Shown here one piece after another: positions 4,361 through 35,126 of a stretch of 64,000 bases of DNA. Position 1 is the stretch's first letter; each line of letters opens with the position of its first letter. Made by a program: the position numbers and the translations under genes. Source of the stretch: Shinella sp. H4-D48 (GTDB lineage: Bacteria; Pseudomonadota; Alphaproteobacteria; Rhizobiales; Rhizobiaceae); contig NZ_CP093338.1 in the NCBI RefSeq assembly GCF_022637395.1, positions 806,001 to 870,000 on the forward strand. The letters run 5' to 3'. The notes beneath the pieces are model-generated. The model saw only the letters and a list, made by a program, of their open reading frames with translations, made no database searches and was not told the origin of the DNA.

Positions 4361-5842
4361 TCAGGCAAGTTCGCCAATGCAGACGTACTTCATTTCCAGG
4401 TAGTCTTCGGCGCCATGGGCCGAGCCTTCCCGCCCAAGGCCGGATTGCTTGATGCCGCCGAAGGGGGCTGCCTCCGAGGAAATGAGGCCGGTATTGACGC
4501 CCACCATGCCGTATTCCAGCGCTTCAGCTACCTTCCAGACCTTCTTGAGATCGCCGGCATAGAAATAGGCGGCAAGACCGAACTCGGTGTCGTTGGCCTG
4601 TTCGATGACGTCCTCGACTGCGTCGAAGCGGAAGAGCGGCGCGAGCGGGCCGAACGTCTCTTCCCGCGCCACCGTCATGCCACGGGCGACGCCCTTCAAG
4701 ACGGTCGGCTCGAAGAAGGTGCCCTTGCCCGCCACGCGCTTGCCGCCGGAAACGACCATCGCGCCCTTGGAAACAGCGTCGGCAATATGTGCCTCGACCT
4801 TTTCGATGGCGGCTTCCTCGATCAGCGGACCGACCGTCGTGCCCTTTTCGAAACCGTCGCCGACGGAAAGTTCGGCGACCTTCTTCGCGAGCTTGTCCGC
4901 AAAGGCGTCATAGACGTTCGACTGCACATACAGCCGATTGGCGCAAACGCAGGTCTGCCCGGCATTGCGGTACTTGGACGCCATGGCGCCTTCGACAGCG
5001 GCGTCGAGGTCCGCGTCATCGAAAACGATGAAGGGCGCATTGCCGCCAAGCTCCAGGCTCATCTTCTTGATCTGATCCGCGCACTGGCGCATCAGGATGC
5101 GCCCCACTTCCGTCGATCCCGTGAAGGAAATCTTGCGGACCTTCGGGTTATAGCAAAGCTCCTTGCCGATTGCCGGACCGTCCGTTCCGAGGACGATGTT
5201 GAACACACCGGCGGGAATTCCGGCCCTTTCGGCCAGAACGGCAAGCGCGATGGCCGACAGCGGCGTCAGTTCGGCGGGCTTGGAAACGACCGTGCAGCCG
5301 ACGGCCAGCGCCGGCGCCACCTTGCGGGCGATCATCGCGGCCGGGAAGTTCCACGGCGTGATCGTACCGACCACGCCGACCGGCTGCTTGATGACCATCA
5401 TGCGCTTGTCGGCGCTGGCGGCGGGGATCGTCTCGCCGTTGATGCGCTTGGCCTCTTCCGCATACCATTCGACATAGGACGCGGCGTAGATGATTTCGCC
5501 CTTGGCTTCGGCCAGCGGCTTGCCCATTTCGGCGGTCAGGATCGCGGCAAGCTCGTCGGCATGGGCGATCATCAGATCAAACCACTTGCGCAGAAGAATG
5601 CTGCGCTCCTTTGCCGGGCGCGCGGCCCAGGCGGGCTGAACCCGGTAGGCGGCGTCGATTGCCGCCTTCGTCTCGGCCGCGCCCATTTCCGGCAAGGTCG
5701 CCAGTTTCTCGCCGGTCGCCGGATTGAGCACGTCGAAGGTGCCGGCGGCACTGTCGCTGACCCATTTGCCGTCCACATAGCCGGCATCGCGCAGCAGGTC
5801 GCCCGACGTGAAGTGCCGGGTCAGAGCATCATAGAAAGCCAT
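4361..5842 (-). CDS. gabD: Succinate-semialdehyde dehydrogenase (GabD)
   Basis: An NAD(P)-dependent aldehyde dehydrogenase of 493 residues that oxidises succinate semialdehyde to succinate, the last step of GABA catabolism. The start [11 protein letters not shown] at 5842 has AAAGGA upstream; a start 11 codons earlier lacks one. Key residues are N165 (PWNFP), E264 (SLELGG) and C298 in GQTCVC. The tandem C298/C300 arrangement and the C-terminal [20 protein letters not shown] match GabD. It lies downstream of gabT on the same strand, with a hairpin between them. Two further ALDH genes at 15.8 and 50.2 kb could overlap in function. Confidence 0.95.
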
Positions 5843-5872
5843 TGTCGTTCCTTTCGGGCAGCAAAAGGCGTT

Positions 5873-5896
5873 CACCCGGAGCGTCTGCTCCGGGTG
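5873..5896 (-). repeat. Intercistronic hairpin between gabT and gabD
   Basis: Arms CACCCGGAGC (5873-5882) and GCTCCGGGTG (5887-5896) form a perfect ten-pair stem with a GTCT loop. There is no T run on the reading strand, so an mRNA-stabilising or processing element is more likely than termination. Confidence 0.6.
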
Positions 5897-5932: not shown

Positions 5933-7207
5933 TTAGCCGCGGGCTTCGATCATCGCCGCTTCGAGAATGTCGAGACCTTCGGCAAACACCTCGTCCTGAA
6001 TGGTGATCGGCGCGAGGAAGCGGATGACGTTGCCATGCACGCCGCAGGTCAGCAGGATCAGGCCCTTTTCAAGCGCCTTCAGACGAACCTTGTTGGCGAA
6101 TTCCGCACTCGGCTGCTTCGTCGCGACGTCGTTGAATTCGACGGCGTTCATGAAGCCCGGGCCACGGATGTCGACGATCTCCGGAACCTTGTCGCGCAAG
6201 GATGCAAGACGCTGCTTGAGCCGTGCACCGAGGTTTTCTGCGCGGTTGCACAGGTCCTCGTCCTTGATGACGTCGAGAACGGCATGGGCCGCTGCAACGC
6301 CGATCGGGCTGCCGGCATAGGTGCCGCCCAGACCGCCCGGGCCGGGTGCGTCCATGATTTCGGCGCGGCCTGTGACGGCCGCGATCGGGAAGCCGCCACC
6401 AAGGCCCTTGGCCATGGTCACGAGGTCAGCCGTGACGCCGAAATGCTCCATGGCGAACAGCTTGCCAGTACGAGCAAAGCCGGTCTGAACTTCGTCGGCG
6501 ATCAGCAGGATGCCGTGCTTGTCGCAGACCTCACGGATCGCCTTCATGAAGCTGACCGGGACCGGATAGAAGCCGCCTTCGCCCTGCACGGGCTCGATGA
6601 TGATCGCGGCGACGCGGTTCGGGTCCACATCGGCGGCAAAGAGCTTCTTCAGCACATCCAGCGATTGTTCGACGCTCGTGCCGTGCATCTCGACCGGGAA
6701 CGGCGCATGGTAGATGTCGGCCGGCATCGCACCGAACCCGACCTTGTAGGGAACGACCTTGCCGGTCAGCGCCATGCCCATAAAGGTGCGGCCGTGGAAG
6801 GCACCGGAAAACGCGATGACAGCCTGGCGGCCGGTGGCAGCGCGGGCGATCTTAACGGCATTCTCGACGGCTTCCGCGCCTGTCGTGACGAAGATGGTCT
6901 TCTTCTCGAAGTCGCCTGGAGTGATGGCGTTCAGACGCTCGGCGAGTTCCACATAGTTTTCATAGGGCACGACCTGGTGGCAGGTATGCGTGAAGCGGTC
7001 GAGCTGCTTCTTGACGGCCTCGATGACACGCGGATGGCGATGTCCGGTGTTGACGACGGCGATGCCGGCGGCGAAATCGATATAGCGATTGCCTTCCTTG
7101 TCCCAGATTTCCGCATTCTCCGCACGGTCGGCGTAGATCTGCGTGGTCATGCCCACGCCGCGCGAGATGGCGGCGTTCTTGCGGTCGGTCAGCGGGGAGG
7201 CGGTCAT
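5933..7207 (-). CDS. gabT: 4-aminobutyrate--2-oxoglutarate transaminase (GabT)
   Basis: A PLP-dependent class III aminotransferase (424 residues) converting GABA plus 2-oxoglutarate to succinate semialdehyde plus glutamate. The start MTASPLTDRKNAA at 7207 has AGGAT eight bases upstream. The PLP lysine is K267 in MAKGLGGGFPIAA, the PLP-nitrogen aspartate is D238 in IADEVQTGFARTG, and the IIIEPVQGEGG segment contains the conserved glutamate. It leads the gabTD operon and is divergent from a MerR/XRE/cupin regulator, across a gap rich in repeats. Substrate specificity is inferred from family and operon; some GabT enzymes also accept other omega-amino acids. Confidence 0.95.
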   Translation of the reverse strand: MTASPLTDRKNAAISRGVGMTTQIYADRAENAEIWDKEGNRYIDFAAGIAVVNTGHRHPRVIEAVKKQLDRFTHTCHQVVPYENYVELAERLNAITPGDFEKKTIFVTTGAEAVENAVKIARAATGRQAVIAFSGAFHGRTFMGMALTGKVVPYKVGFGAMPADIYHAPFPVEMHGTSVEQSLDVLKKLFAADVDPNRVAAIIIEPVQGEGGFYPVPVSFMKAIREVCDKHGILLIADEVQTGFARTGKLFAMEHFGVTADLVTMAKGLGGGFPIAAVTGRAEIMDAPGPGGLGGTYAGSPIGVAAAHAVLDVIKDEDLCNRAENLGARLKQRLASLRDKVPEIVDIRGPGFMNAVEFNDVATKQPSAEFANKVRLKALEKGLILLTCGVHGNVIRFLAPITIQDEVFAEGLDILEAAMIEARG

Positions 7208-7241
7208 GGCGCTATCCTGAATCTGGAGGCTTCGATTAATA

Positions 7242-7311
7242 ACTTGCATTTTTTCTGCAAGCCTTATGTGGAATTCCTACATTTTTTCTGCAAGAATGCA
7301 ACTGGCATTCT
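7242..7311. promoter_or_regulatory. Repeat array in the gabT/regulator intergenic region
   Basis: Two identical 15-base direct repeats CATTTTTTCTGCAAG start at 7247 and 7280, 33 bases apart (about three helical turns). The first lies in an inverted repeat CTTGCA/TGCAAG. Just after the second is a 7-base-arm palindrome, AGAATGC (7293-7299) and GCATTCT (7305-7311). This is a plausible operator array for the adjacent regulator; binding is inferred. Confidence 0.6.
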
Positions 7312-20570: not shown

Positions 20571-20592
20571 CCTTGCCGCGTAGGAAGGTCAA
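20571..20592 (-). promoter_or_regulatory. CueR-box promoter of copZ, overlapping the preceding stop codon
   Basis: On the minus strand TTGACC (20587-20592) is followed by CCTT-N10-AAGG (20571-20588), one base shorter than the copA box. The -35 hexamer lies over the stop codon of the upstream aminotransferase gene (20589-20591). Confidence 0.65.
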
Positions 20593-21767
20593 GCCCCATT
20601 TATCGAGAAACCGGCAAGCCGTGCACCGAGTTTACCGATCGTCTCTACATCGGCATTGGCAAAGGCGAAACGCAGGTAATCTTCCTGCCCGGGTCCGAAA
20701 TAGCTGCCCGGAAGGCAGAGAATGCCCGCCTCCTTGGCAAGTCGCTCCGCCACCACCGCCGATGGCGTGCCGGCGAAGGGGTGCGCGATGAAAGCGAAAT
20801 AGGCGCCGACAGCACCGACACGCCACGCCGGCGCCGCAACCATGGTGGCGAGAAGCGCTTCGACACGGCGCGCGATCTCGCGGCGGTTCTCCTCGCGCCA
20901 ATCGGAGAGAAGCGGAATGGCGGTGGCAACGGCCGCCTGCGCCGAGCGCGGCGGGCAGATCTGCAGATTGTCCATGATCTTGGCGACCTGCGTCACCACC
21001 GCGTTGCCGGCCGTGATCGCGCCAAGGCGATGACCGGGAATGCAGAAGGACTTGGAGAAGCTGTAGAGGCCGATCAGCGTATCCTCCCAGCCCGCGCGCC
21101 CGAACAGGTCGTGCGGCCGGCCGGCGCCGGCGGGCAGGAAGTCGCGATAGGTCTCGTCGAGGATCAGCCAGATGCCGCGCGCGACGCAAAGATCGTAGAT
21201 CGCGCCCAGCATATCCGGCGGATAGACCGCGCCGGTCGGGTTGTTCGGCGAGACGAGGGCGATGGCGCGCACGTCGGGCGTGATGCCGGCGGCAAGCGCC
21301 GCGAGGTCGGGCAGGAAGCCGTTTTTCGGGTCGCAGGCGGCAAACCGGGTCTTGATGCCCAGCATGGCCAGCGTCGTTTCCTGGTTGAAATAATAGGGAT
21401 CGGTCATCAGCACCGCGTCCCCCGCACCCGCCACCGCCATGGCGGCGCAGATGAAGGCCTGGTTGCAGCCGGCGGTGATATGGACGTTGCCGGCGGCAAG
21501 CGCCGCGCCGTAGCTTTCCGAGAGATGGTCTGCATAGGCCTTGCGCAGCACCGCCTCGCCTTCGATCGGGCCGTAGCCGGTATAGGCGCGCGAGGCGGCG
21601 TATTCGCCCAGCAGCCTCAGCATGTCCGGATGCGGCGGATAACCCGGCACGGCCTGCGAGAAGTCGATCATCGCGCCGCCGCGCCCGTCATAGGCGTCTG
21701 CCCAGGCGAAGACGGAGGGGATCGGCGGGGCGGCGAGGGTTTCGACGAGAGGATTGAAGCGAGGCAT
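20589..21767 (-). CDS. Class I/II PLP-dependent aminotransferase
   Basis: A 392-residue fold-type I aminotransferase. Visible features are the cofactor-phosphate region ITAGCNQAF (about 96-104), SPNNPTGAVYPPD, the aspartate loop ILDETYRDF and the PLP lysine in SFSKSFCIPGHRLGA. The C-terminal part holds the substrate-carboxylate arginine in DYLRFAFANAD. The family covers aspartate, aromatic, branched and omega-amino-acid transaminases, so the substrate is not determined. It runs parallel to a LysR gene upstream; the copper genes downstream have their own promoter. Confidence 0.9.
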   Translation of the reverse strand: MPRFNPLVETLAAPPIPSVFAWADAYDGRGGAMIDFSQAVPGYPPHPDMLRLLGEYAASRAYTGYGPIEGEAVLRKAYADHLSESYGAALAAGNVHITAGCNQAFICAAMAVAGAGDAVLMTDPYYFNQETTLAMLGIKTRFAACDPKNGFLPDLAALAAGITPDVRAIALVSPNNPTGAVYPPDMLGAIYDLCVARGIWLILDETYRDFLPAGAGRPHDLFGRAGWEDTLIGLYSFSKSFCIPGHRLGAITAGNAVVTQVAKIMDNLQICPPRSAQAAVATAIPLLSDWREENRREIARRVEALLATMVAAPAWRVGAVGAYFAFIAHPFAGTPSAVVAERLAKEAGILCLPGSYFGPGQEDYLRFAFANADVETIGKLGARLAGFSINGA

Positions 21768-21783: not shown

Positions 21784-22800
21784 TCAGGCGCGGGTCTTGC
21801 GCGGAGGGCTTGTTGGTATCAGGCGCTTGGCCGGTGTCGTGGTGGCGCGGTAGGCATCGGCGCTACGGCCGCCGCGCCCGCGCAGATGCAGGCGGGCTGA
21901 GGCCTGCGGCTCGGGCAGGGTTTCCTCCAGCGCCGCAAAGAGCCAGTCGATGAACACCTTGACGATGGGCGACTGGCGCAGCGCCTGCCGGCAGGCGACA
22001 TAGAAGGCATCGTTGGCCGGCACCGAGAGGTCGAAGGGCACGACAAGCTCGCCGCGGGCGATCAGGTTGCTCGCCGTGATGTTGTCGCCCAGCGCGATGC
22101 CCTGTCCGTAGAGCGCCGCTTCCGTCGAAAGACGTGCATCGCTCATGAAATGCTGGCGGTCACGCGGCATGTCGATGGCGTCGGCGGCGGCCAGCCATGT
22201 GTTCCATTCGCGCCCGTCATCGCCGTGAAACAGCGCGTGATCGGCCAGATCGCGAACGGAGCGCAGCGGGCGGCTGTTGAGGAGGGTGGGGCTCGCCACC
22301 GGGAAAAGCCGGAGATTTGACCACAGCCGCGTCCAGCAGTCCGGCCAGTTGCCGTCGCCATAAAGCAGGCTCACATCCGTATCGAGCGAGCGCAGATGTT
22401 GCGGGTCGTTGGATGCGATCAGCGTCACCTTCACGCCGGGAAACTGGTCGGTGAATGTATTCAGCCTGGGGAGAAGCCAGAGCGAGAGCAGTGCGGGCAC
22501 GCAGCTTATGGTGATGTCGCCGCGCGTCTCCGGCTGTTTCATCAGGGCGGTTGCCGCGGCGATCTCGCTGAAGGCATTGGTGACGGCAGGCAAAAGCAGC
22601 GCGCCCTGCGGCGTCAGCTTCAAGCGCTTGCCGTTGCGTTCGAAGAGCGTCGTCCCGAGCGATTCCTCCAGCGCACGGATCTGATGGCTCACCGCGCCAT
22701 GCGTCACGTTCAATTCACGCGCCGCTGCTGAGACGGCGCCCCGACGCGCGGTCGCTTCAAAGGCGCGCAAGGGGTTGAGAGGCGGAAGGCGCGAAGCCAT
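21784..22800 (-). CDS. LysR-family regulator (GcvA-like)
   Basis: A 338-residue LysR regulator. The winged helix-turn-helix is at about 6-65 (PPLNPLRAFEATARRGAVSAAARELNVTHGAVSHQIRALEESLG) and is of the GcvA type; the effector domain follows (about 95-290). The tail after PEPQASARLHLRGRGG is unusually long, basic and probably disordered. ATG 22800 is preferred to TTG 22806. It is divergent from the ureohydrolase/transporter operon, with a GTGAG-N5-CTCAC dyad between them, so it probably controls that operon and itself. The aminotransferase gene follows 16 bases downstream. Confidence 0.9.
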   Translation of the reverse strand: MASRLPPLNPLRAFEATARRGAVSAAARELNVTHGAVSHQIRALEESLGTTLFERNGKRLKLTPQGALLLPAVTNAFSEIAAATALMKQPETRGDITISCVPALLSLWLLPRLNTFTDQFPGVKVTLIASNDPQHLRSLDTDVSLLYGDGNWPDCWTRLWSNLRLFPVASPTLLNSRPLRSVRDLADHALFHGDDGREWNTWLAAADAIDMPRDRQHFMSDARLSTEAALYGQGIALGDNITASNLIARGELVVPFDLSVPANDAFYVACRQALRQSPIVKVFIDWLFAALEETLPEPQASARLHLRGRGGRSADAYRATTTPAKRLIPTSPPRKTRA

Positions 22801-22813
22801 GGACAACCTGTAT

Positions 22814-22828
22814 GTGAGTTTTTCTCAC
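22814..22828. promoter_or_regulatory. LysR-type dyad upstream of the ureohydrolase operon
   Basis: GTGAG (22814-22818) and CTCAC (22824-22828) flank a run of five T. The dyad fits the T-N11-A pattern of LysR sites and lies 14 bases upstream of the lysR start in the divergent region. The AT-rich stretch after it probably holds the promoters. Confidence 0.55.
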
Positions 22829-22971
22829 GAATACCGCTACAACAATGTCAATTGATTTTCCATATGGATTGCCGCGATAATGCTGTCAACGAGGGCAAAG
22901 CCCCGGGAACGTTATCAGGCTATCGCGTACCGGCCCCGGACCGCCCGCATCTCAACAGGTGAGGCAGGATC

Positions 22972-24024
22972 ATGAGCGACACGAAGCTCGACGAGCTCAG
23001 GGCTAAATACGGCGAGAGCCACGGCGGCGACATCTTCGACCCCGCTTTCCGCAAGGTCGCGGACAAGATTTTCAACAAGAGCGGCACGCGTCTGGCGCCC
23101 TATGCCGGCGTTCCCACCTTCCTCTCCGCCCCCTACATGCCCGTGGAGGCGGATGCCCCGGATTTCGGCAATCTCCAGGTCGCCATTACCGGCGTGCCCA
23201 TGGATCTCGGCGTCACCAACCGCCCGGGTTCGCGCTTCGGGCCCCGCGCCATGCGCGCCATAGAGCGGATCGGCCCCTACAACCACGTGCTTGATTGCGC
23301 GCCGGTGCAGGAGCTTCGCGTGGCGGATATCGGCGACGTGCCGTTCCAGAGCCGCTACCGCCTCGAACTCAGCCACGACGATATCGAGAAGCGCTTCAAC
23401 CAGATCGTCGATGCCGGAGTCATCCCGCTCGCCGTCGGCGGCGACCACTCGATCACGCATCCGATCATGAAGGCCGTCGGCAAGAGAGAGCCGGTCGGCA
23501 TGATCCATATCGACGCCCATTGCGACACCGGCGGCCTTTTCGACCAGACGAAGTTCCACCACGGCGGCCCGTTCCGCAACGCCGTACTCGACGGCGTGCT
23601 CGATCCGAAGCGCACCATCCAGATCGGCATCCGCGGCTCATCAGAATATCTGTGGGAGTTCTCCTACGATTCCGGCATGACCGTCATTCACGCGGAAGAG
23701 GTCACCGGCCTCGGCATCCCCGCCATCATCGAGAAGGCGAAGGCGATCGTCGGCGACGGCCCGACTTACCTCTCGTTCGACATCGACAGCCTGGATCCGA
23801 GCTTTGCGCCCGGCACCGGCACGCCCGAGATCGGGGGCCTGACGACGCGTGAGGTTCTTGAACTCATCCGCGGCCTCAAGGGCATCAATCTCGTCGGCGG
23901 CGACGTCGTGGAGGTAGCACCGCAATACGACGCGACGACCAACAGCGCCCATGCCGGCGCGCAGGTGCTGTTCGAAATTCTGAGCCTGATGGTATTCAGC
24001 CCTTCCGTGACGGCGAAAGCCTGA
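22972..24024 (+). CDS. Arginase/agmatinase-family ureohydrolase, probably for a guanidino acid
   Basis: A 350-residue manganese ureohydrolase releasing urea from a guanidino compound. The binuclear metal ligands are complete: H159 (GGDHS), D181, H183 and D185 (IDAHCDT), D270 and D272 (SFDIDSLDP). The active-site loop FHHGGPFRNAVLDGVLD and the IQIGIRGSSEYLW segment look more like guanidinobutyrase/guanidinopropionase than E. coli agmatinase, and there is an N-terminal extension of about 40 residues. Agmatine, 4-guanidinobutyrate, 3-guanidinopropionate and guanidine all remain possible. It leads an operon with a polyamine-type ABC importer and a nitrilase-family amidase. Confidence 0.9.
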   Translation: MSDTKLDELRAKYGESHGGDIFDPAFRKVADKIFNKSGTRLAPYAGVPTFLSAPYMPVEADAPDFGNLQVAITGVPMDLGVTNRPGSRFGPRAMRAIERIGPYNHVLDCAPVQELRVADIGDVPFQSRYRLELSHDDIEKRFNQIVDAGVIPLAVGGDHSITHPIMKAVGKREPVGMIHIDAHCDTGGLFDQTKFHHGGPFRNAVLDGVLDPKRTIQIGIRGSSEYLWEFSYDSGMTVIHAEEVTGLGIPAIIEKAKAIVGDGPTYLSFDIDSLDPSFAPGTGTPEIGGLTTREVLELIRGLKGINLVGGDVVEVAPQYDATTNSAHAGAQVLFEILSLMVFSPSVTAKA

Positions 24025-24051
24025 CATACAATAGCAACAACGGGAACATGC

Positions 24052-24071
24052 CGGCCGGTCCAGACCGGCCG
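24052..24071 (+). repeat. Intercistronic hairpin after the ureohydrolase gene
   Basis: CGGCCGGTC (24052-24060) and GACCGGCCG (24063-24071) are perfectly complementary around CA. No T run follows; it lies just ahead of the ribosome-binding site of the binding-protein gene. Confidence 0.55.
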
Positions 24072-24093
24072 ACCTAACAGGAGAAAGACGACC

Positions 24094-25182
24094 ATGCGTG
24101 ACATCCTCAAGACCAATGTCAGCCGCCGCGCGGTGCTGGGCGCCGGCGTTGCCGGTGCTTCGCTGCTGGCCATGCCCGCCGTCCTGCGCGCGCAGGACAA
24201 GTCGCTGAAGGTCGGCGTCTACGGCGGCTACTTCAAGGATTCCTTCGACAAGAACATCTTTGCGGATTTCACCAAGGAAACCGGCATCGCCGTTGAATCC
24301 GTCGCTGAGCCGACGGGCGAGGCATGGCTGGTCCAGCTCGAGCAGGCCGCCAAGGCGGGCCAGGCCCCGGCCGACGTCTCGATGATGTCGCAGGTCGCCA
24401 TGCTCAAGGGCCAGTCCACCGAGCTGTGGGCGCCGCTCGATGTGGCGAAGATCCCGAACGCCTCCAACCTCATCGACCATTTCGTCAACAAGTACCCGGA
24501 TGGCCGCATCGCCGGCATCGGCGCCGTCGCCTGGTACATCACGCTCGTGACCAACACGGATGTCTACAAGGAAGCGCCGACCTCGTGGAATGCGCTGTGG
24601 GATCCGGCGAATGCCGACAAGCTCGGCCTGCTTGCGCTCGTTTCCAACTCGTTCCTGCTGGAAGTGACCGCCAAGACCCATTTCGGCGGCACCAACGCGC
24701 TCGACACCGAGGACGGCCTCCTCAAGGCCTTCGAGAAGCTCGCCGAAGTCAAGCCGAACGTACGCCTGTGGTATCGCGACGAGGCCCAGTTCGAACAGTC
24801 GCTGAAGTCGGGCGAAATCCCGATGGGCCAGTATTATCATGACGTGACGGGCCTTGCCGCGGCCGATGGCCAGCCGGTGCGCTCGACCTTCCCCAAGGAA
24901 GGTGGCATCATGGATTCGGGCTGCTGGGCGCTGTCGCGCGCGTCCGCCAAGGTCGAGGAAGCCCATACCTTCATCAACTACATGAGCCAGCCGAAGATCC
25001 AGGCGCTGCTGTCGCGCAAGGTCGGCACCGCGCCGACCGTCAAGCGCGATCTGCTCGACCTGACGGCGGAGGAGTTCGCCGCCGTGTCGTCGGACATCGA
25101 GCCGATCATTCCGCGCTACGACCTCTACCAGACCAAGTCCGACTGGCTGAACCAGAAGTGGACGGAAATGATCGCCGGCTGA
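24094..25182 (+). CDS. Polyamine-type ABC transporter, periplasmic binding protein
   Basis: A 362-residue extracellular solute-binding protein of the PotD/PotF-like family. The N-terminus carries a Tat-like signal (NVSRRAVLGAGVAGASLLAMPAVLRA, cut near residue 34). The mature protein begins KSLKVGVYGGYFKDSFDK and contains WGIDM-free but family-typical blocks such as VAWYITLVTNTDVYKEAPTSWNALWDPANADKLG. AGGAG precedes the ATG. Genes for the ATPase and two permeases follow. Context with a ureohydrolase suggests a guanidino compound or polyamine as ligand; this is inference. Confidence 0.9.
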   Translation: MRDILKTNVSRRAVLGAGVAGASLLAMPAVLRAQDKSLKVGVYGGYFKDSFDKNIFADFTKETGIAVESVAEPTGEAWLVQLEQAAKAGQAPADVSMMSQVAMLKGQSTELWAPLDVAKIPNASNLIDHFVNKYPDGRIAGIGAVAWYITLVTNTDVYKEAPTSWNALWDPANADKLGLLALVSNSFLLEVTAKTHFGGTNALDTEDGLLKAFEKLAEVKPNVRLWYRDEAQFEQSLKSGEIPMGQYYHDVTGLAAADGQPVRSTFPKEGGIMDSGCWALSRASAKVEEAHTFINYMSQPKIQALLSRKVGTAPTVKRDLLDLTAEEFAAVSSDIEPIIPRYDLYQTKSDWLNQKWTEMIAG

Positions 25183-25207
25183 TCGCCCGATCCATCGAAA
25201 CCTTGCC

Positions 25208-25240
25208 CGGCCGCCAGCGTGAAGCCTATGCTGGCGGCCG
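25208..25240 (+). repeat. Intercistronic hairpin between the binding-protein and ATPase genes
   Basis: CGGCCGCCAGC (25208-25218) and GCTGGCGGCCG (25230-25240) form a perfect 11-pair stem with an 11-base loop. The location just after a binding-protein gene is where stabilising hairpins keep binding protein in excess over membrane components. Confidence 0.65.
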
Positions 25241-25275
25241 CGTGCCTTGAACCGAACGCGCCGAGCGGAGAACCA

Positions 25276-26310
25276 ATGTCCGGACTGACCCTCCAGAACG
25301 TCACCAAAGAATTCGGCACGTTTACCGCCGTCAGGAATGTCGAGCTGACGGTGCCGCACGGCACCTTCGTCTGCCTGCTCGGCCCGTCGGGCTGCGGCAA
25401 GACCACGCTGATGCGCATGGTCGCCGGGCTGGACCTTCCCACAAGCGGCTCGATCCGCCTCGGCGACCGCGACATCACCAATGTGCCCACCCACAAGCGC
25501 GACCTCGGTATGGTCTTCCAGTCGCTGGCGCTCTTTCCGCATCTGACGGTCGGTGAGAACATTGCCTACTCGCTGCGCATCCGCGGTGTCGGCAAGGCCG
25601 AACAGAAGAAGCGCGTCGACGAACTTCTCGCCATGATCCACCTGACCGGCTACGCCGACCGCCCGGTCGCCAAGCTCTCCGGCGGCCAGCGCCAGCGCGT
25701 CGCGATCGCCCGCGCGCTCGCCATCTCGCCCAAACTCTTCCTGCTCGACGAGCCGCTCTCGGCGCTCGACGCCAAGCTGCGCGAGGCCATGCAGGTGGAG
25801 CTGCGCCAGCTCCAGCAGCGCCTCGGCATCACCACCATCGTCGTCACGCACGATCAGCGCGAGGCCATGACCATGGCCGATACCGTGGTCGTGATGAATG
25901 GCGGCGAGATCCGGCAGGCCGCGCCCCCGGTTGAAATCTACCGCCGCCCGGCAGATACCTTCGTCGCCGATTTCATCGGCATGACGAACCTTATCGATTT
26001 CAAGGCCGACGGCGCCGGCACGCAGGTTCTGGGCGCCTCGGTTCCCGGCCTCACCATTCCGAACAGCCTGCCATCAGGCATCATCTCCGTGCGCCCGGAG
26101 GATGTGCATCTCACCGCACCCGGTAATGCGCCGATCACGGGCACCGTCACCTTCGTGCGCGATCTCGGGGGCACGATCGAGACCTTCGTGGAGGCCGCCG
26201 GCAAGCAGATCGTCGCCGTCTCCATGCCCAATGCCCGCCCGGACGTTGCCGTCGGGCAGAGCGTCGGCATTGCGCTCAACCCCGATGATTGCGTGGTGCT
26301 GAAGGCATGA
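25276..26310 (+). CDS. Polyamine-type ABC transporter, ATP-binding protein (PotA-like)
   Basis: A 344-residue ABC ATPase. Walker A is GPSGCGKTT (about 36-44), the Q-loop is VFQSLALFPH, the signature LSGGQRQRVAIARAL (about 136-150), Walker [13 protein letters not shown] and the H-loop THDQREA. A C-terminal TOBE domain (about 280-344: ISVRPEDVHL) marks the spermidine/putrescine-type class. The ATG at 25276 has GGAG six bases upstream; an earlier in-frame ATG lies inside the intercistronic hairpin. The stop overlaps the next start (ATGA). Confidence 0.93.
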   Translation: MSGLTLQNVTKEFGTFTAVRNVELTVPHGTFVCLLGPSGCGKTTLMRMVAGLDLPTSGSIRLGDRDITNVPTHKRDLGMVFQSLALFPHLTVGENIAYSLRIRGVGKAEQKKRVDELLAMIHLTGYADRPVAKLSGGQRQRVAIARALAISPKLFLLDEPLSALDAKLREAMQVELRQLQQRLGITTIVVTHDQREAMTMADTVVVMNGGEIRQAAPPVEIYRRPADTFVADFIGMTNLIDFKADGAGTQVLGASVPGLTIPNSLPSGIISVRPEDVHLTAPGNAPITGTVTFVRDLGGTIETFVEAAGKQIVAVSMPNARPDVAVGQSVGIALNPDDCVVLKA

Positions 26311-27161
26311 GACGCGAGCCGCCGCAGAAACTCACCGATTACAGCCCGCTCGTCTTTCCGGCCGGCATGCTGATCGTCTTCTTCGTCGTGCCCTTCGCGA
26401 CGATGATCGCGGTCTCCTTCTTCAAGCGCAATCCGTCTGGCTTCTACACGCCGGATTTCGTCTTCGACAATTACGCCCGCTTCCTCAGCCTCTTCTTCGG
26501 CAAGGTGCTCGGCTTCTCGTTGATGCTCGCCATTGCGGTCGCCATCTGCTGCGTCGTGCTTGCCGTGCCCTTCACCTATCTCCTGTCGCGCGCCAGGCGG
26601 CGCACGCAGGTGCTCTGGCTCGTTGCTTTGCTGTCGATCCTCTCGCTCTCCGAAGTCATCATCGGCTTTGCCTGGTCGACGCTGTTTTCTCGCACCGCCG
26701 GCATCACCAACCTCTTCGTCATGCTCGGCATCATGGACCAGCCAGTGGCGCTCAATCCGAGCTTCGGCGCCGTGCTGACGGCCATGACCTATCAGGCGCT
26801 GCCCTATACCGTGCTCGTGCTCTATCCCGCGCTTGTGCGGCTTGATCCGACGCTGACGGAAGCCGCGCGCACGCTCGGCGCCTCGCCGGTGCGCTCCTTC
26901 TTCACTGTCGTCGTTCCGGCGCTGCGCAACACCATCGTCGCCACGCTGATCATGGTCTTCATCTTCGCCCTTGGCTGCTATCTGTTGCCGCAGATCCTCG
27001 GCCGGCCGCAGCACTGGACGCTATCCGTGCTCATCACCGACCAGGCGATCTACCAGTCGAACATGCCGTTCGCCGCTGCCATGGCCGTGTTCCTTGTGCT
27101 TGTCACGCTCGGCCTCGTCGGCCTCACCATTTATGCCGGACGCAAGGGAGAAGCCGCATGA
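26307..27161 (+). CDS. Polyamine-type ABC transporter, permease (PotB-like)
   Basis: A 284-residue inner-membrane permease with about six hydrophobic helices. The cytoplasmic EAA loop that contacts the ATPase is EAARTLGASPVRSFFTVVVPALRNTI. The start at 26307 overlaps the ATPase stop by ATGA, showing tight coupling; the stop overlaps the second permease in the same way. It should form the membrane channel as a heterodimer with the next gene product. Confidence 0.92.
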   Translation: MRREPPQKLTDYSPLVFPAGMLIVFFVVPFATMIAVSFFKRNPSGFYTPDFVFDNYARFLSLFFGKVLGFSLMLAIAVAICCVVLAVPFTYLLSRARRRTQVLWLVALLSILSLSEVIIGFAWSTLFSRTAGITNLFVMLGIMDQPVALNPSFGAVLTAMTYQALPYTVLVLYPALVRLDPTLTEAARTLGASPVRSFFTVVVPALRNTIVATLIMVFIFALGCYLLPQILGRPQHWTLSVLITDQAIYQSNMPFAAAMAVFLVLVTLGLVGLTIYAGRKGEAA

Positions 27162-27961
27162 CCGTGTTTCTTCAGCGTCTTTATTTTAGCCTGATCGGCC
27201 TCTTCCTGGCCCTACCGCTCATCGTGGTCGCGGGTGTCTCCGTCAACGAGAAGCAGGATCTCGCTTTCCCGCCCAAGGGCTTCTCCTTGGCCTGGTACGC
27301 AGAGATCTTCACCAATGTCGAGTGGCGCAACGCGCTGTTCGCGTCGATCACGCTGGCGGCGCTATCGGCGGCCGTTGCGCTTCTCATTGCGCTGCCGCTG
27401 GCGTGGTTCCTCTGGCGGCGTCATGCGCCCTGGGCCAATATCTTCCAGCTGCTTGGCATTGCACCCTTCACCCTGCCGCCGGTCATCACGGCGCTCGGCC
27501 TGCTCACCTTCTGGGCGGCGACGGGCTTCTACGGTCAGCCGGCCACGGCCGTGATCAGCCACGCCATCTTCTTCGTGACCCTGCCGCTGGTGACGCTGTC
27601 GCTCGGCTTCTCCTCAATCGACCGCTCGCTGGTCGAAGCCGCCGCGACAATGGGCGCAGACGACCGCACGGTCTTCCGCACCGTCGTCCTGCCGTTGATC
27701 CTGCCCTATCTCGTCTCCGGCTATGCCTTCGCCTTCGTGCTGTCGCTCAATGAATATATCGTCGCCTACATGACCGTCGGCTTCACCATGGAGACGCTGC
27801 CGATCAAGATCTTCAACGCCCTGCGCTACGGCTATACGCCCACCATGGCCTCGGTCACGATCCTGTTCGTCGCCATCGCGGCCACCATATTCGGCCTCGT
27901 CGCGCGCTTCGGCGACCTGCCCAAGCTGCTCGGCGCCATGTCGTCGCGCGATCAGGAGTAA
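27158..27961 (+). CDS. Polyamine-type ABC transporter, permease (PotC-like)
   Basis: A 267-residue permease with about six membrane segments, beginning RLYFSLIGLFLALPLIVVAG and including the EAA motif VEAAATMGADDRTVFRTVVLPLILP. It overlaps the first permease by ATGA. The nitrilase-family gene follows after four bases, so transporter and enzyme are co-expressed. Confidence 0.92.
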   Translation: MTVFLQRLYFSLIGLFLALPLIVVAGVSVNEKQDLAFPPKGFSLAWYAEIFTNVEWRNALFASITLAALSAAVALLIALPLAWFLWRRHAPWANIFQLLGIAPFTLPPVITALGLLTFWAATGFYGQPATAVISHAIFFVTLPLVTLSLGFSSIDRSLVEAAATMGADDRTVFRTVVLPLILPYLVSGYAFAFVLSLNEYIVAYMTVGFTMETLPIKIFNALRYGYTPTMASVTILFVAIAATIFGLVARFGDLPKLLGAMSSRDQE

Positions 27962-27965
27962 GAGC

Positions 27966-28748
27966 ATGCGCATCGCCGCCCTTCAGATGAAAGCCATCGC
28001 CGGCGATATAGAGGCGAACCTGGCCCGCATCGCGGCGGCCGCCGCCGATGCGGCGAAGGGCGGCGCGAGCCTGCTTGTCGTGCCCGAACTCGCCGTCACC
28101 GGCTATGGCGCGGGGGAGGCGTCCTTCTCAGACCTCGCGTCTCCGGCATCCGGCGACACGGTCGCCCGCCTCAGCGCCATCGCGCGCGAAATGGGTATTG
28201 CCATCATCGCCGGCTTTGCAGAACGCGAGGGCACGGCGGTCTATAACAGCGCCGTCTTCACCGATGGCATCGGCACCAATGCCGTCTACCGCAAGTCCCA
28301 TCTCTACGGCGAATACGAGCGCGCCGCCTTCAAGCCTGCGACACCCGCCTCCGTCCTTGTCGAGCTTGGCGGGCTGAGGCTCGGCATGCTGATCTGCTAC
28401 GATGTGGAATTCCCCGAGAATGTCCGCCGCCTCGCCCGTGCCGGCGCCGATCTCGTCGTCGTCCCGACCGCCCTGCCGGAGGGCGCCTCCGGCACCTTCA
28501 TCGCCAGCCATATGATCCAGGTGCGGGCCTTCGAGAACCAGGTCTTCGTCGCCTATGTCGATCATTGCGATAGTGACGGCCTTTTCGCCTATGCCGGCCT
28601 CTCGCGCATCGCCGCCCCTGACGGCACGCTGCTCGCCGAAGCCCCGGCGCAAGGCGAGGCCCTGCTCTTCGCCGACATCCGCCCCGCCGACTACGACACC
28701 TCCCGCGCCGAAAACACCTATCTGGCGGATCTCGATCGCCCCGTCTGA
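27966..28748 (+). CDS. Nitrilase-superfamily carbon-nitrogen hydrolase (amidase)
   Basis: A 260-residue member of the nitrilase superfamily with the full catalytic triad E41 (VVPELAVTGYG), K110 (YRKSHLYGEYE) and C144 (LICYDVEFPE). These enzymes hydrolyse amides, carbamoyl groups or nitriles. It is the last gene of the ureohydrolase/ABC operon. In known arginine monooxygenase pathways a nitrilase-type 4-guanidinobutyramidase yields 4-guanidinobutyrate, which a ureohydrolase then splits to urea and GABA; that pairing would fit here. N-carbamoylputrescine amidase is an alternative, though the protein is short for it. Confidence 0.9.
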   Translation: MRIAALQMKAIAGDIEANLARIAAAAADAAKGGASLLVVPELAVTGYGAGEASFSDLASPASGDTVARLSAIAREMGIAIIAGFAEREGTAVYNSAVFTDGIGTNAVYRKSHLYGEYERAAFKPATPASVLVELGGLRLGMLICYDVEFPENVRRLARAGADLVVVPTALPEGASGTFIASHMIQVRAFENQVFVAYVDHCDSDGLFAYAGLSRIAAPDGTLLAEAPAQGEALLFADIRPADYDTSRAENTYLADLDRPV

Positions 28749-29385: not shown

Positions 29386-31056
29386 TCAGGCCTGGTAGGT
29401 GATCCGCCCGTCGCAGATCGTGGTCACCGGCCGCACCGTCGCCAGCGCGGCAAAGTCCGTCGCCTCGATATCGGCCGAAAGCACCACGATATCAGCGAGA
29501 TACCCCTTCTTCAGCATGCCCTTGCGGTCTTCCATGAACTCGACCCAGGCGCCGGTCCTCGTATAGGCGGCAAGCGTCTCGTGCAGCGAAAGCCGTTCGT
29601 CCTTCATGCCCTCCTTCCACACCGTGCGCGACATGGCGCACTGGATGGAATGCATCGGATCGAGCGGAGAGACCGGCCAGTCCGTGGCAAACACGATCGG
29701 CGCACCGGCATCGACCAGCGTGCGCCAGGCGAAGGCATAAGGCCAACGGTCCTCGCCGATATACGACATATACGGTTCGAGTGGCAGGCCGGCGCTGCCC
29801 GGCGGATGCGTCGGCTGCATCGAGGCGACCGTGCCCAGTTCCTTGAAGCGGGGGATATCGTCAGGATGGACTACCTCGATGTGCTCGACGCGGTTGCGGC
29901 TGTCGCGCTTGCCATTCGCCTTGATCGCAGCCTCGTATCCGTTCAACACCATGCGCACGGCACCGTCGCCGATGGCATGGACGGCGACTGGAAGGCCGAG
30001 CTTGTCGGCGGCGATGGCGATGTTGTCGAACTGCTCCTGCGTGAACAGCGGCTCGCCCTTCCAGCCCGGCTGGTGCGCATAGTCATCGACGAAGACCGCC
30101 GTACCGGATTCCGTCACGCCATCCATGAACAGCTTGACGAAATTCGAACGCAGGCGATCCGTATCGAAGCGCGTCCGCCAGGCGGCGGCCTTCGTCTCGA
30201 GGTCGGACAGCGGCATGAAATTCTTCATGTGGAAGGGCATGCGCACGCGCACCGGCAGGCCCACGGTCTTCTCGATCTCGTCGAGCATTTCCAGCTGATA
30301 AAGGCTGCCGTCCATGTTCTGCAGCGAGGTAATGCCGAGCGATGCGACATAGGCGAGGCCCTCCTTGAGGATCGCGATATCGCCAGCACGCTCCTCCTCC
30401 GTCACATGCTCTGGATCACCGCCCGTTCCGACGCCGAGCATCTCTCGACCGCCCGTCTCGCCGAGCGCCGAGACCGGGCGGATGGCGTTGCTTTCGCGCA
30501 GCTCGCCGTTGGCCAGCCCGTCCTCGCCCATGACGATCTCGTTGCCTATACCGACATCGCGGCCCTCGAAAATGCCGCCGCCCTTGAGCGCCAGCGTGTT
30601 CGCCCAGGCGGTGTGATGATCGGGCGCGAAGATCAGCACGGCGCGATCCGGCAGGATGCGGTCGAGGTGATGGCGTGTCACGCGTTCGTCATCGGACAGG
30701 ATCGTGTAGTCGGCATGCTGGGCGATCAGCAGCGCCCTGTCAGGATATTCGGCGGCATAATCCCGCAAGGCCTTCGCCAGCGCGTCGAAGCCCTTCACGC
30801 CGGCAAGCGAGAGTTCCCGCAGTTCGGCCGAGCCGCCGAAGATATGCATATGCGCTTCGTTGAAGCCCGGCAGGACCGTCGCGCCCTTGGCGTCGATAAC
30901 ATGCGTGTCGGGGCCGGAAAAAGCATCGATCGCGGCTTCCGAGCCGACCGCGAGGATGCGGTTGCCGGCGACCGCCAAAGCGCTCGCACGCGGATTGGCG
31001 TCGTCCATCGTCAGCACCCGCGCATTGCGGATGATAAAGCTCGCTTCGGCCTGCAT
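29386..31056 (-). CDS. Metal-dependent amidohydrolase (YtcJ/NfdA-like)
   Basis: A 556-residue amidohydrolase-superfamily enzyme. The composite beta domain (RNARVLTMDDANPRASALAV) leads to the metal site GFNEAHMH (H69, H71). Further ligands and landmarks are VKLFMDGVTESGTA, VAVHAIGDGAVRM, NRVEHIEVV and FATDWPVSPLDP. The family includes N-substituted formamide deformylase and many uncharacterised YtcJ proteins. GAGGAG precedes the ATG. It is the last gene of an operon with a NylB-like hydrolase and a polyamine-type importer, suggesting stepwise hydrolysis of an imported amide; this is inference. Confidence 0.9.
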   Translation of the reverse strand: MQAEASFIIRNARVLTMDDANPRASALAVAGNRILAVGSEAAIDAFSGPDTHVIDAKGATVLPGFNEAHMHIFGGSAELRELSLAGVKGFDALAKALRDYAAEYPDRALLIAQHADYTILSDDERVTRHHLDRILPDRAVLIFAPDHHTAWANTLALKGGGIFEGRDVGIGNEIVMGEDGLANGELRESNAIRPVSALGETGGREMLGVGTGGDPEHVTEEERAGDIAILKEGLAYVASLGITSLQNMDGSLYQLEMLDEIEKTVGLPVRVRMPFHMKNFMPLSDLETKAAAWRTRFDTDRLRSNFVKLFMDGVTESGTAVFVDDYAHQPGWKGEPLFTQEQFDNIAIAADKLGLPVAVHAIGDGAVRMVLNGYEAAIKANGKRDSRNRVEHIEVVHPDDIPRFKELGTVASMQPTHPPGSAGLPLEPYMSYIGEDRWPYAFAWRTLVDAGAPIVFATDWPVSPLDPMHSIQCAMSRTVWKEGMKDERLSLHETLAAYTRTGAWVEFMEDRKGMLKKGYLADIVVLSADIEATDFAALATVRPVTTICDGRITYQA

Positions 31057-31074
31057 GGAATGCTCCTCGAAGGG

Positions 31075-32256
31075 TCAGATTGCCCGGCGGCAAAGCGCGC
31101 GGAAGAAGGTGAAGACGTCCTGGTTTTCCTCGTCACCCAGCGGTTCTGGTTGGGAGGAGAGCTTGACGATGACGGTCTCGGTGCTTGGATCGACATAGAG
31201 CCACTGGCCGTGGATGCCGATCGCACAGAAAGCGCCGTCGGCTTCGCCAGACTGATACCACTGGCTGCGGTAGCGACCGTTCGGCAGATCGACATTGCGG
31301 CCCTGCTGCCAGGCCTCCCGGTCGCCGTTGTCCTGCATATCGCGGATCCAGCCTTCAGGGATAACCTGGCGGCCATTGCGAACGCCATGGTTTCGCAGCA
31401 ATTCGCCAAGCCGCGCCAGATCGCGCGCTGTTATGGAAACGCCGCCGGCGGTGCGCGGCGTGCCGATGGCATCCACCGTGACCTCGGCGTTGTTCCTGGC
31501 GCCCATCGGCTTCCACAGCAGATCGGAAGTCAGATCGGCAAAGCGGGCGCCTGTCGCCCGTTCGATGATGACGCCGAGCAGGTCGGCATTGGGCGAGGCG
31601 TAGTAGAACGGTCCGCCATGCGGTCGTTCGGCCTTCTGAAGCGTCAGCAGGAACGAGGCCAGCGTCTCCGGCTCCACATCCGGCATCGGCGGGTTCCACA
31701 GCATGGCGCGGCGATAGCGGGCGAAAGCGCCATAGGGATCGAGATAGGCTTCCTCGAAATCGAGGCTCACGCGCATGTCCAGCACATCGCGGTAGGTGCA
31801 ATCGCCGTAGACGCTGCCCTTTGCCTCGGGCAGGTAGTCCGTAACGGGGCGGTCCGGGTCGAGGATGCCCTCGGCTTCAAGGATACCGGAGACCACGGCC
31901 GTCAGCGACTTCGAAATCGAGAAGACAAGGTGCGGCGCGTTGGGGTCGGCGTGCGGTGCATAATATTCCGCGACGATCTCACCTCGGCGCATCAGGACGA
32001 ACGCGTCGGTATGGGCAAAGTCGAGGAAGGCGCGTGCGGTGGCCGCCCCCGCCAGGCCCGTCTCCATCGGCGCGTCGAGGAACGTATCGCTCGCAAGCGG
32101 CTGCTCCGCGCTCACCAACTCAGCCGCAATGACGGAGGTCGGCACGAAATCGCGCACGTTCTGGAACGTCCAGCGGCTGTAGGGAGCCGTTCGCCAGTTG
32201 GCGAGCGTGACATCGGCACGGGCAAAGCCGTGCGTTTCCTTGAAGGTCTTGATCAT
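31075..32256 (-). CDS. Serine hydrolase of the beta-lactamase fold, NylB/EstB-like
   Basis: A 393-residue class C beta-lactamase-fold hydrolase without a signal peptide. The SxxK motif is S113-I-S-K116 (HLVFSISKSLTAV) and the tyrosine motif Y219-ASPN (GPFYYASPNADLLG). Length and landmarks (GARNNAEVTVDAIGTPRTAGG, SITARDLARLG) resemble 6-aminohexanoate-dimer hydrolase NylB (392 residues, S112/K115/Y215), a family that splits linear amides and esters. It lies between the importer genes and an amidohydrolase gene in one orientation. No strong ribosome-binding site is seen before the ATG. The substrate is unknown; antibiotic resistance is not implied. Confidence 0.88.
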   Translation of the reverse strand: MIKTFKETHGFARADVTLANWRTAPYSRWTFQNVRDFVPTSVIAAELVSAEQPLASDTFLDAPMETGLAGAATARAFLDFAHTDAFVLMRRGEIVAEYYAPHADPNAPHLVFSISKSLTAVVSGILEAEGILDPDRPVTDYLPEAKGSVYGDCTYRDVLDMRVSLDFEEAYLDPYGAFARYRRAMLWNPPMPDVEPETLASFLLTLQKAERPHGGPFYYASPNADLLGVIIERATGARFADLTSDLLWKPMGARNNAEVTVDAIGTPRTAGGVSITARDLARLGELLRNHGVRNGRQVIPEGWIRDMQDNGDREAWQQGRNVDLPNGRYRSQWYQSGEADGAFCAIGIHGQWLYVDPSTETVIVKLSSQPEPLGDEENQDVFTFFRALCRRAI

Positions 32257-32327
32257 GAGAATGCCGCCAGTCTGCGGGAAGGCGTCAAGCCCTCCCGCAT
32301 ATGGCTGTCCTTGTTACATGCGACGCA

Positions 32328-33368
32328 TTACTTCTGCAGTTCGGTCCAGATCCGGGTGTAAAGCTGCTGCGTCTCCGGCTCGCAGCTCAGCAGGAACTCG
32401 CCGGCCTTCTCGTATTCCGGCGGAACGACCAGTTCCGGCGCAGTCTTCATTTCTTCCGGCAGGAACTGGTCCGAGCCCTTGATGCCGTTGGCATATTTCG
32501 CGAAGGCCGAAATCATCGCGGCGTTCTCCGGGTCCATGATGAAGTTCATGAACAGCTTGGCGTTTTCCGGATTCTTCGCGTCCTTGAGGAGTGCTGCGCT
32601 GTCCATGAAGTAGGGGAAGCCCTCCTTCGGATAGCCCATCTTGACATCGGGGTTCTTCAGGCGCGAACGCATGATGGCGCCGTTCCAGTAGTAGACGCCG
32701 GCATAGTCGCCGGACGGCAGCTTCTCGGTGACGCTGTAATCCATGGCGAGCCACTTCGTCTTGGCTTCCACAAGCTTGTCGCGGACCTTGCGCAACACTT
32801 CCTTGTCAGTGGTGCACCAGTCGCCGCCAAAATACTTGATCGTGGCGAAGAGCACATCGTTCATCTCCGGCGCGACGTTGATCTTGCCAACCAGTTCCGG
32901 CGGCGGATCGAGGAAGATGGCGGACGTGTTGATATCGCCCTTGTAGACCGAGGTGTTGACGCCGATGCCCGTCAGGCCCCACTGCCACGGAACGGTGTAG
33001 TGACGACCCGGATCCCAGGGAACGTCCACCCAGCGCGGATCGACGTTCTTGAAGTTCTCCATCTGGTCGGGCCGAACTTCTTCGATGAGACCTTCCTTGA
33101 CCCAGATCTGCACGTAGTTGGCCGAGGGAACGACGATGTCGAAGCCGTGGCCGCCGGCGCGGACCTTGGCAAGCGCCGTGTCGTTCGAATCGTAGTCGGT
33201 CACGGTGACCTTGACGTCGAACTCCTTCTCGAACTTCTTGATCAGTTCAGGGCTCGTATAGTCACCCCAGTTGTAGATGTTGAGTTCGCCTGCGGCCGAT
33301 GCTCCATTGGCGAAGGCCAGGGCGGCGACCGCGGCTATTGCCGTCGTGGTGATCCATTTCGATTTCAT
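32328..33368 (-). CDS. Polyamine-type ABC transporter, binding protein (PotD/PotF-like)
   Basis: A 346-residue periplasmic protein. The signal peptide MKSKWITTTAIAAVAALA...ASA is cut near residue 25, and the mature start GELNIYNWGDYTSPELIKKFEKEF is the hallmark of PotD/PotF. Other family blocks are VTVTDYDSNDTALAKVRAGG, DIVVPSANYV and PWQWGLTGIGVNTS. GAGAGGAA precedes the ATG. It is downstream of both permeases, the usual potABCD-type order. Confidence 0.93.
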   Translation of the reverse strand: MKSKWITTTAIAAVAALAFANGASAAGELNIYNWGDYTSPELIKKFEKEFDVKVTVTDYDSNDTALAKVRAGGHGFDIVVPSANYVQIWVKEGLIEEVRPDQMENFKNVDPRWVDVPWDPGRHYTVPWQWGLTGIGVNTSVYKGDINTSAIFLDPPPELVGKINVAPEMNDVLFATIKYFGGDWCTTDKEVLRKVRDKLVEAKTKWLAMDYSVTEKLPSGDYAGVYYWNGAIMRSRLKNPDVKMGYPKEGFPYFMDSAALLKDAKNPENAKLFMNFIMDPENAAMISAFAKYANGIKGSDQFLPEEMKTAPELVVPPEYEKAGEFLLSCEPETQQLYTRIWTELQK

Positions 33369-33404
33369 GTCTGTTCCTCTCTGTCGTTGGTCTGTCGGAT
33401 TTGG

Positions 33405-35124: not shown

Positions 35125-35126
35125 CG

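Follow-up and report, generated by a model that had tools for sequence, protein, structure and literature searches.

What does a bacterium take up and degrade with an operon that joins a ureohydrolase gene to the genes of a polyamine-type importer and of a nitrilase-type amidase? Such an operon is found in a stretch of 64,000 nt from the genome of the soil bacterium Shinella sp. H4-D48 (contig NZ_CP093338.1, positions 806,001-870,000, called the window in the following; the whole genome comprises 4.77 Mb in three contigs). On the plus strand the genes for the ureohydrolase (UH), a solute-binding protein (SBP), the ATPase and two permeases of an ABC importer and a nitrilase-family amidase (NIT) follow each other with gaps of 69, 93, -4, -4 and 4 bp, given the starts chosen here, and the minus strand carries a LysR-type regulator gene and 16 bp further on an aminotransferase gene, both divergent from the UH run (Table 1). 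A first-pass annotation of this DNA had proposed a tight operon under a divergent LysR gene for import and hydrolysis of a guanidino amide, potentially yielding γ-aminobutyrate (GABA), with gabT and gabD in the same window to finish the route. Every part of this operon is in place, gabT and gabD are found some 16 kb upstream of it and score above the cut-offs of their models, and the guanidinobutyrase-like nature of UH is borne out; for the role given to the amidase the support is circumstantial. The reading we favour, at about an even chance of being right, is an operon under LysR control that serves the salvage of small omega-guanidino acids, in which NIT provides an optional entry for an amide.

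On which substrate does the ureohydrolase act? The metal-ligand motifs GGDH, DAHCD and DIDSLD are all present and an arginase domain places UH in the ureohydrolase superfamily. Its best matches in the Protein Data Bank (PDB) are guanidinopropionase (3nip, about 280 bits) and guanidinobutyrase (3nio, about 255 bits), followed by agmatinase (206 bits). The match to 7esr, listed as "probable agmatinase 2" in the PDB and which we take to be guanidine hydrolase, reaches 161 bits, and an operon for free guanidine with a GdmH-like hydrolase of the same superfamily could be imagined; this seems extremely improbable, as the 7esr match is much weaker than those to the guanidino-acid enzymes and no nickel chaperone genes were seen among the operon genes scanned, while guanidine hydrolase requires chaperone-mediated nickel (PMC9772407; this and the other papers cited by PMC number are quoted as far as the available excerpts go). 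In a FastTree tree of 18 sequences UH groups with nine others, namely rhizobial, azospirillar, Agrobacterium, Bartonella, Pannonibacter and Thioclava proteins and a protein of a Klebsiella plasmid, apart from GbuA, GpuA and SpeB (support of the split 1.0), and thus stands outside the GbuA group as well as outside the SpeB group. The other ureohydrolase of the genome (L002) is 49% identical to E. coli SpeB and groups with the SpeB agmatinases.

A more direct indication comes from Sinorhizobium meliloti. The record of strain Ak57 (CP090106) has the same gene order with a UH about 86-87% identical, which is a single close copy, since two other ureohydrolase matches in this record reach just 33% and 30%. 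In the S. meliloti strain with SMc tags, SMc01967 is speB2 and the adjacent tags SMc01963-66 belong by tag order to the same cassette (PMC2912261), and for SpeB2 activity was reported on 4-guanidinobutanoate, 4-guanidinobutyraldehyde and 5-guanidino-2-oxopentanoate (PMC7268258). As CP090106 belongs to Ak57 and not to the SMc-tag strain, the link to SMc01967 goes through gene order and name, and orthology of the window UH with SpeB2 is a strong inference. The published activity of this syntenic enzyme supports a guanidinobutyrase-like UH, which is probably a guanidino-acid hydrolase and most likely converts 4-guanidinobutyrate to GABA and urea. One residue speaks against the assignment: the alignment column of GbuA R72 holds a glycine in UH, with a one-residue gap adjoining. 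R72 could contact the carboxylate of the substrate; in the human enzyme this position is taken by Arg or Gly (PMC9772407).

What then does the importer carry? All its parts stay under the listed polyamine cut-offs, the SBP with 57 bits (cut-off 582) and the permeases with 125 (348) and 112 (326) bits by far, the ATPase with 335 bits for PotA (482) and, narrowly, with 339 bits for the PotA subfamily (356). Moreover, in an alignment read by eye D168, E171 and D257 of PotD, in numbering and role presumably the amine-binding acids, fall on L182, N185 and G276 of the SBP, and these three residues are invariant in 13 aligned SBP sequences, window included. Since the amine-binding acids are replaced, the SBP likely binds a ligand different from polyamines. 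A structure model of the SBP from the 13 sequences (mean pLDDT 44, pTM 0.41) was not used. The database annotation, ordinary uptake of agmatine or polyamines followed by agmatinase, is in this light very unlikely: UH does exceed the cut-off of the agmatinase model TIGR01230 (193.5 versus 174.3 bits) and the gene content of the importer resembles PotABCD, with an ATPase near the PotA subfamily cut-off, but the PDB matches favour guanidinopropionase and guanidinobutyrase over agmatinase, the SBP and permeases score far too low for polyamine transport, the PotD acids are not conserved, and SpeB2 is absent from the agmatinases listed in the excerpt of PMC7268258. The uptake locus itself is already known as SMc01963-SMc01967 of S. 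meliloti, annotated as a spermidine/putrescine transporter. Among the literature matches listed, partly seen as excerpts and with subscription papers outside their coverage, neither a ligand of this transporter nor an ABC importer for guanidinobutyrate or 4-guanidinobutyramide in rhizobia was found.

How could these proteins work together? The ABC importer would bring a guanidino compound into the cell, and UH would cleave it, with urea and an amino acid as products; the most likely substrate is 4-guanidinobutyrate, giving urea and GABA, an activity known for the S. meliloti orthologue. GabT and GabD would take GABA to succinate, and urease, for which a gene is found elsewhere in the genome (contig C1), would release ammonia from urea. 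Optionally, as the neighbourhoods of its relatives suggest, NIT would convert 4-guanidinobutyramide to the acid and ammonia; the order amidase before ureohydrolase is assumed, and the reverse order via 4-aminobutanamide would yield the same products. Furthermore, the aminotransferase may supply UH with 5-guanidino-2-oxopentanoate, one of the SpeB2 substrates.

How well is this arrangement kept among relatives? The best 80 of 573 related stretches were compared, with neighbours scored by fixed identity cut-offs; the sample is biased, as it holds the closest relatives only, and some loci are short. A LysR gene is found near UH in 76 of the 80 loci, a Pot-type importer in 54 and NIT in 36, in all of them as one uninterrupted frame. 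Two importer loci end at a contig edge and were left out, which gives 52 as denominator for NIT: NIT follows the importer in 36 of 52 importer loci and in none of 26 importer-free loci, a contrast that is confounded by kinship, the importer-free loci being mainly from Mesorhizobium, and for which no p value is claimed. Outside the Hyphomicrobiales, two Azospirillum plasmids carry a LysR gene and a run of SBP, ATPase, permease, permease, UH, NIT and threonine ammonia-lyase genes, and a third has importer and UH without NIT. The same content in a different order argues for a functional unit. UH relatives also lie near other transport genes (L103:4952-9035, L106 and L108), in Pannonibacter a divergent Pot-type set together with an FAD oxidoreductase and an aldehyde dehydrogenase. 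Paraburkholderia has taurine-type ABC genes next to its UH relative, and in Azospirillum oryzae such genes follow at a distance of about 4 kb; the substrate in these loci may be taurocyamine. A record under the name Bacillus subtilis (L047, JAHREI010000003.1) contains a rhizobial locus with a UH of 86% identity and the Roseateles plasmid NZ_CP084753.1 a Shinella-like NIT (79.5%), both likely due to mislabelling or contamination.

Two further neighbours in these loci suggest another use of UH. The aminotransferase is found near UH in 39 of the 80 loci and an amino-acid-type ABC set of a binding protein and two permeases in 51, and in R. johnstonii (pRL10) and R. etli the aminotransferase gene adjoins UH with no LysR gene or Pot-type importer directly beside UH. 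The next best model for the aminotransferase is GntC, an arginine-derivative enzyme (237 bits, under the cut-off of 415), and it is possible that the gene behind lysR encodes a guanidino amino acid transaminase. Taken with the acceptance of 5-guanidino-2-oxopentanoate by SpeB2 (PMC7268258), it could be imagined that the aminotransferase converts arginine or a related compound to this keto acid, from which UH then splits off urea, and that arginine-like amino acids or opines are what the importer takes up. As account of the whole locus this is improbable, since 41 of the 80 loci, some of them short, showed no aminotransferase, and neither did any of the 22 loci with LysR and the amino-acid-type set only; the arginine:pyruvate transaminase reported for S. 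meliloti is AspC (PMC7268258); and NIT is left unexplained. Where both importers occur the amino-acid-type set sits between UH and the Pot-type importer (for example L010:11143-13311), no ATPase gene was seen in this insert in L010, L014 and L049, and the 22 loci with this set and LysR but without the Pot-type importer are mainly from Mesorhizobium.

How is the salvage operon controlled? The intergenic region between LysR and UH contains the perfect palindrome GTGAGTTTTTCTCAC (GTGAG-N5-CTCAC), the first base of which, 22814, is the start that the first-pass annotation gave for the locus. The shorter pattern GTGA-N7-TCAC is present in 71 of the 77 LysR-UH intergenic regions compared (that of the window among them, four loci lacking LysR excluded) versus 0.4% of mononucleotide shuffles, and exact GTGAG-N5-CTCAC occurs once in the whole 4.77 Mb genome. 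As the operator is unique in its own genome, LysR looks like a local regulator that probably acts at this palindrome. A scan of the window allowing up to two mismatches returned only the own site, with 1.41 sites expected by chance, and is hence uninformative. In an S. meliloti tolC mutant these genes were reported to go down (speB2 -18.7, SMc01966 -12.4) and the authors point to NtrC (PMC2912261); a tie of the locus to nitrogen regulators is possible, and there is no support for a simple induction by nitrogen starvation. No weight was given to promoter-like matches (1 versus 0.8 expected) or to terminator-like matches (8 versus 3.8 expected, mainly within genes).

What does the amidase add? 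In NIT the residues E41, K110 and C144 are in place, a Glu-Lys-Cys set that we take to be the triad of the nitrilase superfamily, to which the CN_hydrolase domain also assigns the protein, and the best PDB match is an aliphatic amidase (124 bits). N-carbamoylputrescine amidase AguB was considered and rejected (TIGR03381, 101.9 bits versus a cut-off of 410.25). Plasmid 10 of Tsukamurella tyrosinosolvens holds in one run speB, an amino acid permease gene, a NIT relative (44%) and the gene of a 566-residue flavoprotein that is a 2-monooxygenase of the arginine/lysine type (677 bits to 3we0). The 3we0 enzyme turns lysine, ornithine and arginine into amides, arginine into 4-guanidinobutanamide (PMC5832979), and the Tsukamurella gene set would fit a route from arginine via 4-guanidinobutyramide and 4-guanidinobutyrate to GABA. 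In addition, NIT-type genes adjoin such a monooxygenase gene on plasmids of Sulfitobacter, Pseudosulfitobacter, Haematobacter and Paracoccus; in an Arthrobacter the genes for a monooxygenase, a permease and a NIT-type protein lie within 8 kb of each other, with no ureohydrolase match in 20 kb, and Thioclava GXIMD2076 has the monooxygenase without NIT in the stretch. A tree that includes one partial row (L087) unites the NIT proteins of rhizobia, Azospirillum, Tsukamurella, Streptomyces and two roseobacters in a single clade (support 0.92) and separates them from five paralogues, three encoded in the own genome and two in other genomes. The guanidinobutyramidase proposed by the first-pass annotation thus finds circumstantial backing in the Tsukamurella operon and in the monooxygenase-linked members of the NIT clade, and NIT probably converts 4-guanidinobutyramide to the acid and ammonia.

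Where would the amide come from? No arginine/lysine 2-monooxygenase was found in the own genome, where the best match to the flavoprotein query has 21 bits and Pfam amine oxidases reach at most 82 bits, nor at E 1e-20 in any of 35 genomes of NIT-bearing relatives (L011 left out); as a control the query found the enzyme in six of six records, its own among them. Since neither the own genome nor the 35 relatives have the monooxygenase, the amide would have to come from outside. Cross-feeding is conceivable, in which rhizobia and azospirilla unable to make 4-guanidinobutyramide take it up after its release by bacteria with an arginine monooxygenase, such as Streptomyces. A dedicated ABC system of PotD-like ancestry would import the amide, and NIT and UH would break it down to GABA, urea and ammonia. 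We put this forward tentatively, and hold it to be rather unlikely in this complete form; if true, loci without NIT would take the acid only.

A number of observations weigh against a firm place of NIT in the guanidinobutyramide route. Arginine is the poorest substrate of the 3we0 enzyme, with a kcat/Km of 24 versus 74 for lysine and 200 for ornithine (PMC5832979). The Tsukamurella UH is only 38% identical and falls outside the clade of the window UH, and the Sulfitobacter, Pseudosulfitobacter, Haematobacter and Paracoccus stretches have no annotated ureohydrolase nearby, so that the amide there may be that of lysine or ornithine. The NIT clade does not include the NIT-type proteins of Haematobacter, Paracoccus and Arthrobacter, the Streptomyces NIT is accompanied by an APC permease only, and its branch joins the rhizobial one with a weak support of 0.49. 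Moreover, 16 of the 52 importer loci have no NIT, and an orthologue is found elsewhere in one of these 16 genomes (G001, a 75% copy); of the other 15 genomes, five have just 33-37% matches and ten none at E 1e-25. In S. meliloti Ak57 (L095:14156-14919) and Sinorhizobium sp. K101 (L121:783-1552) NIT is frameshifted at the same place near codon 50, and despite this UH is kept in both and the importer in Ak57. The missing and frameshifted NIT genes and the NIT-type genes beside monooxygenases without annotated ureohydrolase would also be expected if the guanidino-acid salvage core were the same but NIT acted on an unrelated amide or omega-aminoamide. This alternative, though the most serious one, remains doubtful, because within the sample NIT never occurs without the importer, because of 25 importer-free genomes searched (L064 left out) 22 have no NIT match at E 1e-25 and three only 33-34% matches, and because the Azospirillum and Tsukamurella clusters hold NIT together with UH. 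For the favoured salvage operon it follows that NIT extends the system and does not define it, as UH and importer are retained without NIT in many lineages, and that the core of the system does not require an amide as substrate, as such loci are common.

The features of the locus and of its surroundings are collected in Table 1. For three genes an ATG was chosen over the start in the list of open reading frames: for LysR (TTG at 22806 in the list), for the ATPase, where the ATG is internal (GTG at 25219), and for the PotB-like permease (TTG at 26289).

Table 1. Coordinates in the window, strands and supporting matches of the features discussed.
Feature	Position	Strand	Evidence
RepA-type plasmid partition gene	447-1688	-	see text
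gabD, succinate-semialdehyde dehydrogenase	4361..5875	-	TIGR01780 733 bits, cut-off 646
gabT, 4-aminobutyrate-2-oxoglutarate transaminase	5933..7249	-	PRK07495 855 bits, cut-off 724
Class I/II aminotransferase	20589..21767	-	PRK07550 567 bits, cut-off 366
LysR-type regulator, GcvA-like	21784..22800	-	PF03466, PF00126; PRK11139 287.9 bits, cut-off 288
Palindromic operator GTGAG-N5-CTCAC, probable LysR site	22814..22828		motif conservation and uniqueness in genome
UH, SpeB2 clade, probable guanidino-acid hydrolase	22972..24024	+	PF00491 298 bits
Periplasmic SBP, PotD-like family	24094..25182	+	SBP_bac_8
ABC importer ATPase	about 25276..26310	+	PF00005, TOBE_2
ABC permease, PotB-like	26307..27161	+	PF00528; PRK09497 124.6 bits, cut-off 348
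ABC permease, PotC-like	27158..27961	+	PF00528; PRK09500 112.3 bits, cut-off 326
NIT, candidate 4-guanidinobutyramidase	27966..28748	+	PF00795 176 bits

The RepA-type gene, together with near-identical UH copies on Shinella megaplasmids (98.9% and 98.6%), indicates that the window belongs to a secondary replicon. Adjoining the operon on the minus strand (29386-36227) is a second cluster with genes for an Amidohydro_3 protein, a beta-lactamase-fold protein and another PotD/PotA/PotB-like ABC importer; the Amidohydro_3 and beta-lactamase-fold genes also adjoin the operon in four Shinella loci (L004-L007). Further on (38452-40833, minus strand) a 793-residue protein combines two aldehyde dehydrogenase stretches in a single frame.

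How does the locus relate to known systems? The closest is the S. meliloti speB2 locus SMc01963-SMc01967, which is like the window in gene order, UH identity and the divergent LysR and aminotransferase genes, whereas the Ak57 locus differs by its frameshifted NIT. GbuA (3nio) and GpuA (3nip) of P. aeruginosa are the nearest solved structures, with 42% and 47% identity and the metal ligands shared with UH, but form a separate clade, and GbuA has R72 in place of the glycine of UH. We know of no Pot-type importer or amidase that accompanies GbuA or GpuA. The importer is similar to the polyamine importers PotABCD and PotFGHI in gene content, with weak sequence similarity and an SBP lacking the amine-binding acids. 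The arginine oxygenase route of azalomycin starter supply, with an arginine monooxygenase and a 4-guanidinobutyramide hydrolase, shares the amide-to-acid step that is proposed here, and the Tsukamurella NIT relative adjoins such a monooxygenase, but the window genome has an ABC importer instead of the monooxygenase. In azalomycin producers 4-guanidinobutyramide has been described as an intermediate, along with the enzyme that hydrolyses it (PMC5082578, PMC10322714). Among the matches listed, the canavanine and hydroxyguanidine literature held nothing fitting. The core of the system is thus not new, as the same locus is found in S. meliloti and the activity of SpeB2 is published, in the excerpt of PMC7268258 not as that of an agmatinase.

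What would it mean if the salvage reading is true? Many genomes of rhizobia and azospirilla would then carry genes of guanidino-acid salvage under the common but misleading labels "speB" and "spermidine/putrescine transporter". The window locus supplies a candidate for an ABC importer of guanidino acids and with NIT a candidate gene for 4-guanidinobutyramide hydrolysis outside the actinobacteria, and arginine-derived cross-feeding in the root zone, ending in GABA, would become simple to test.

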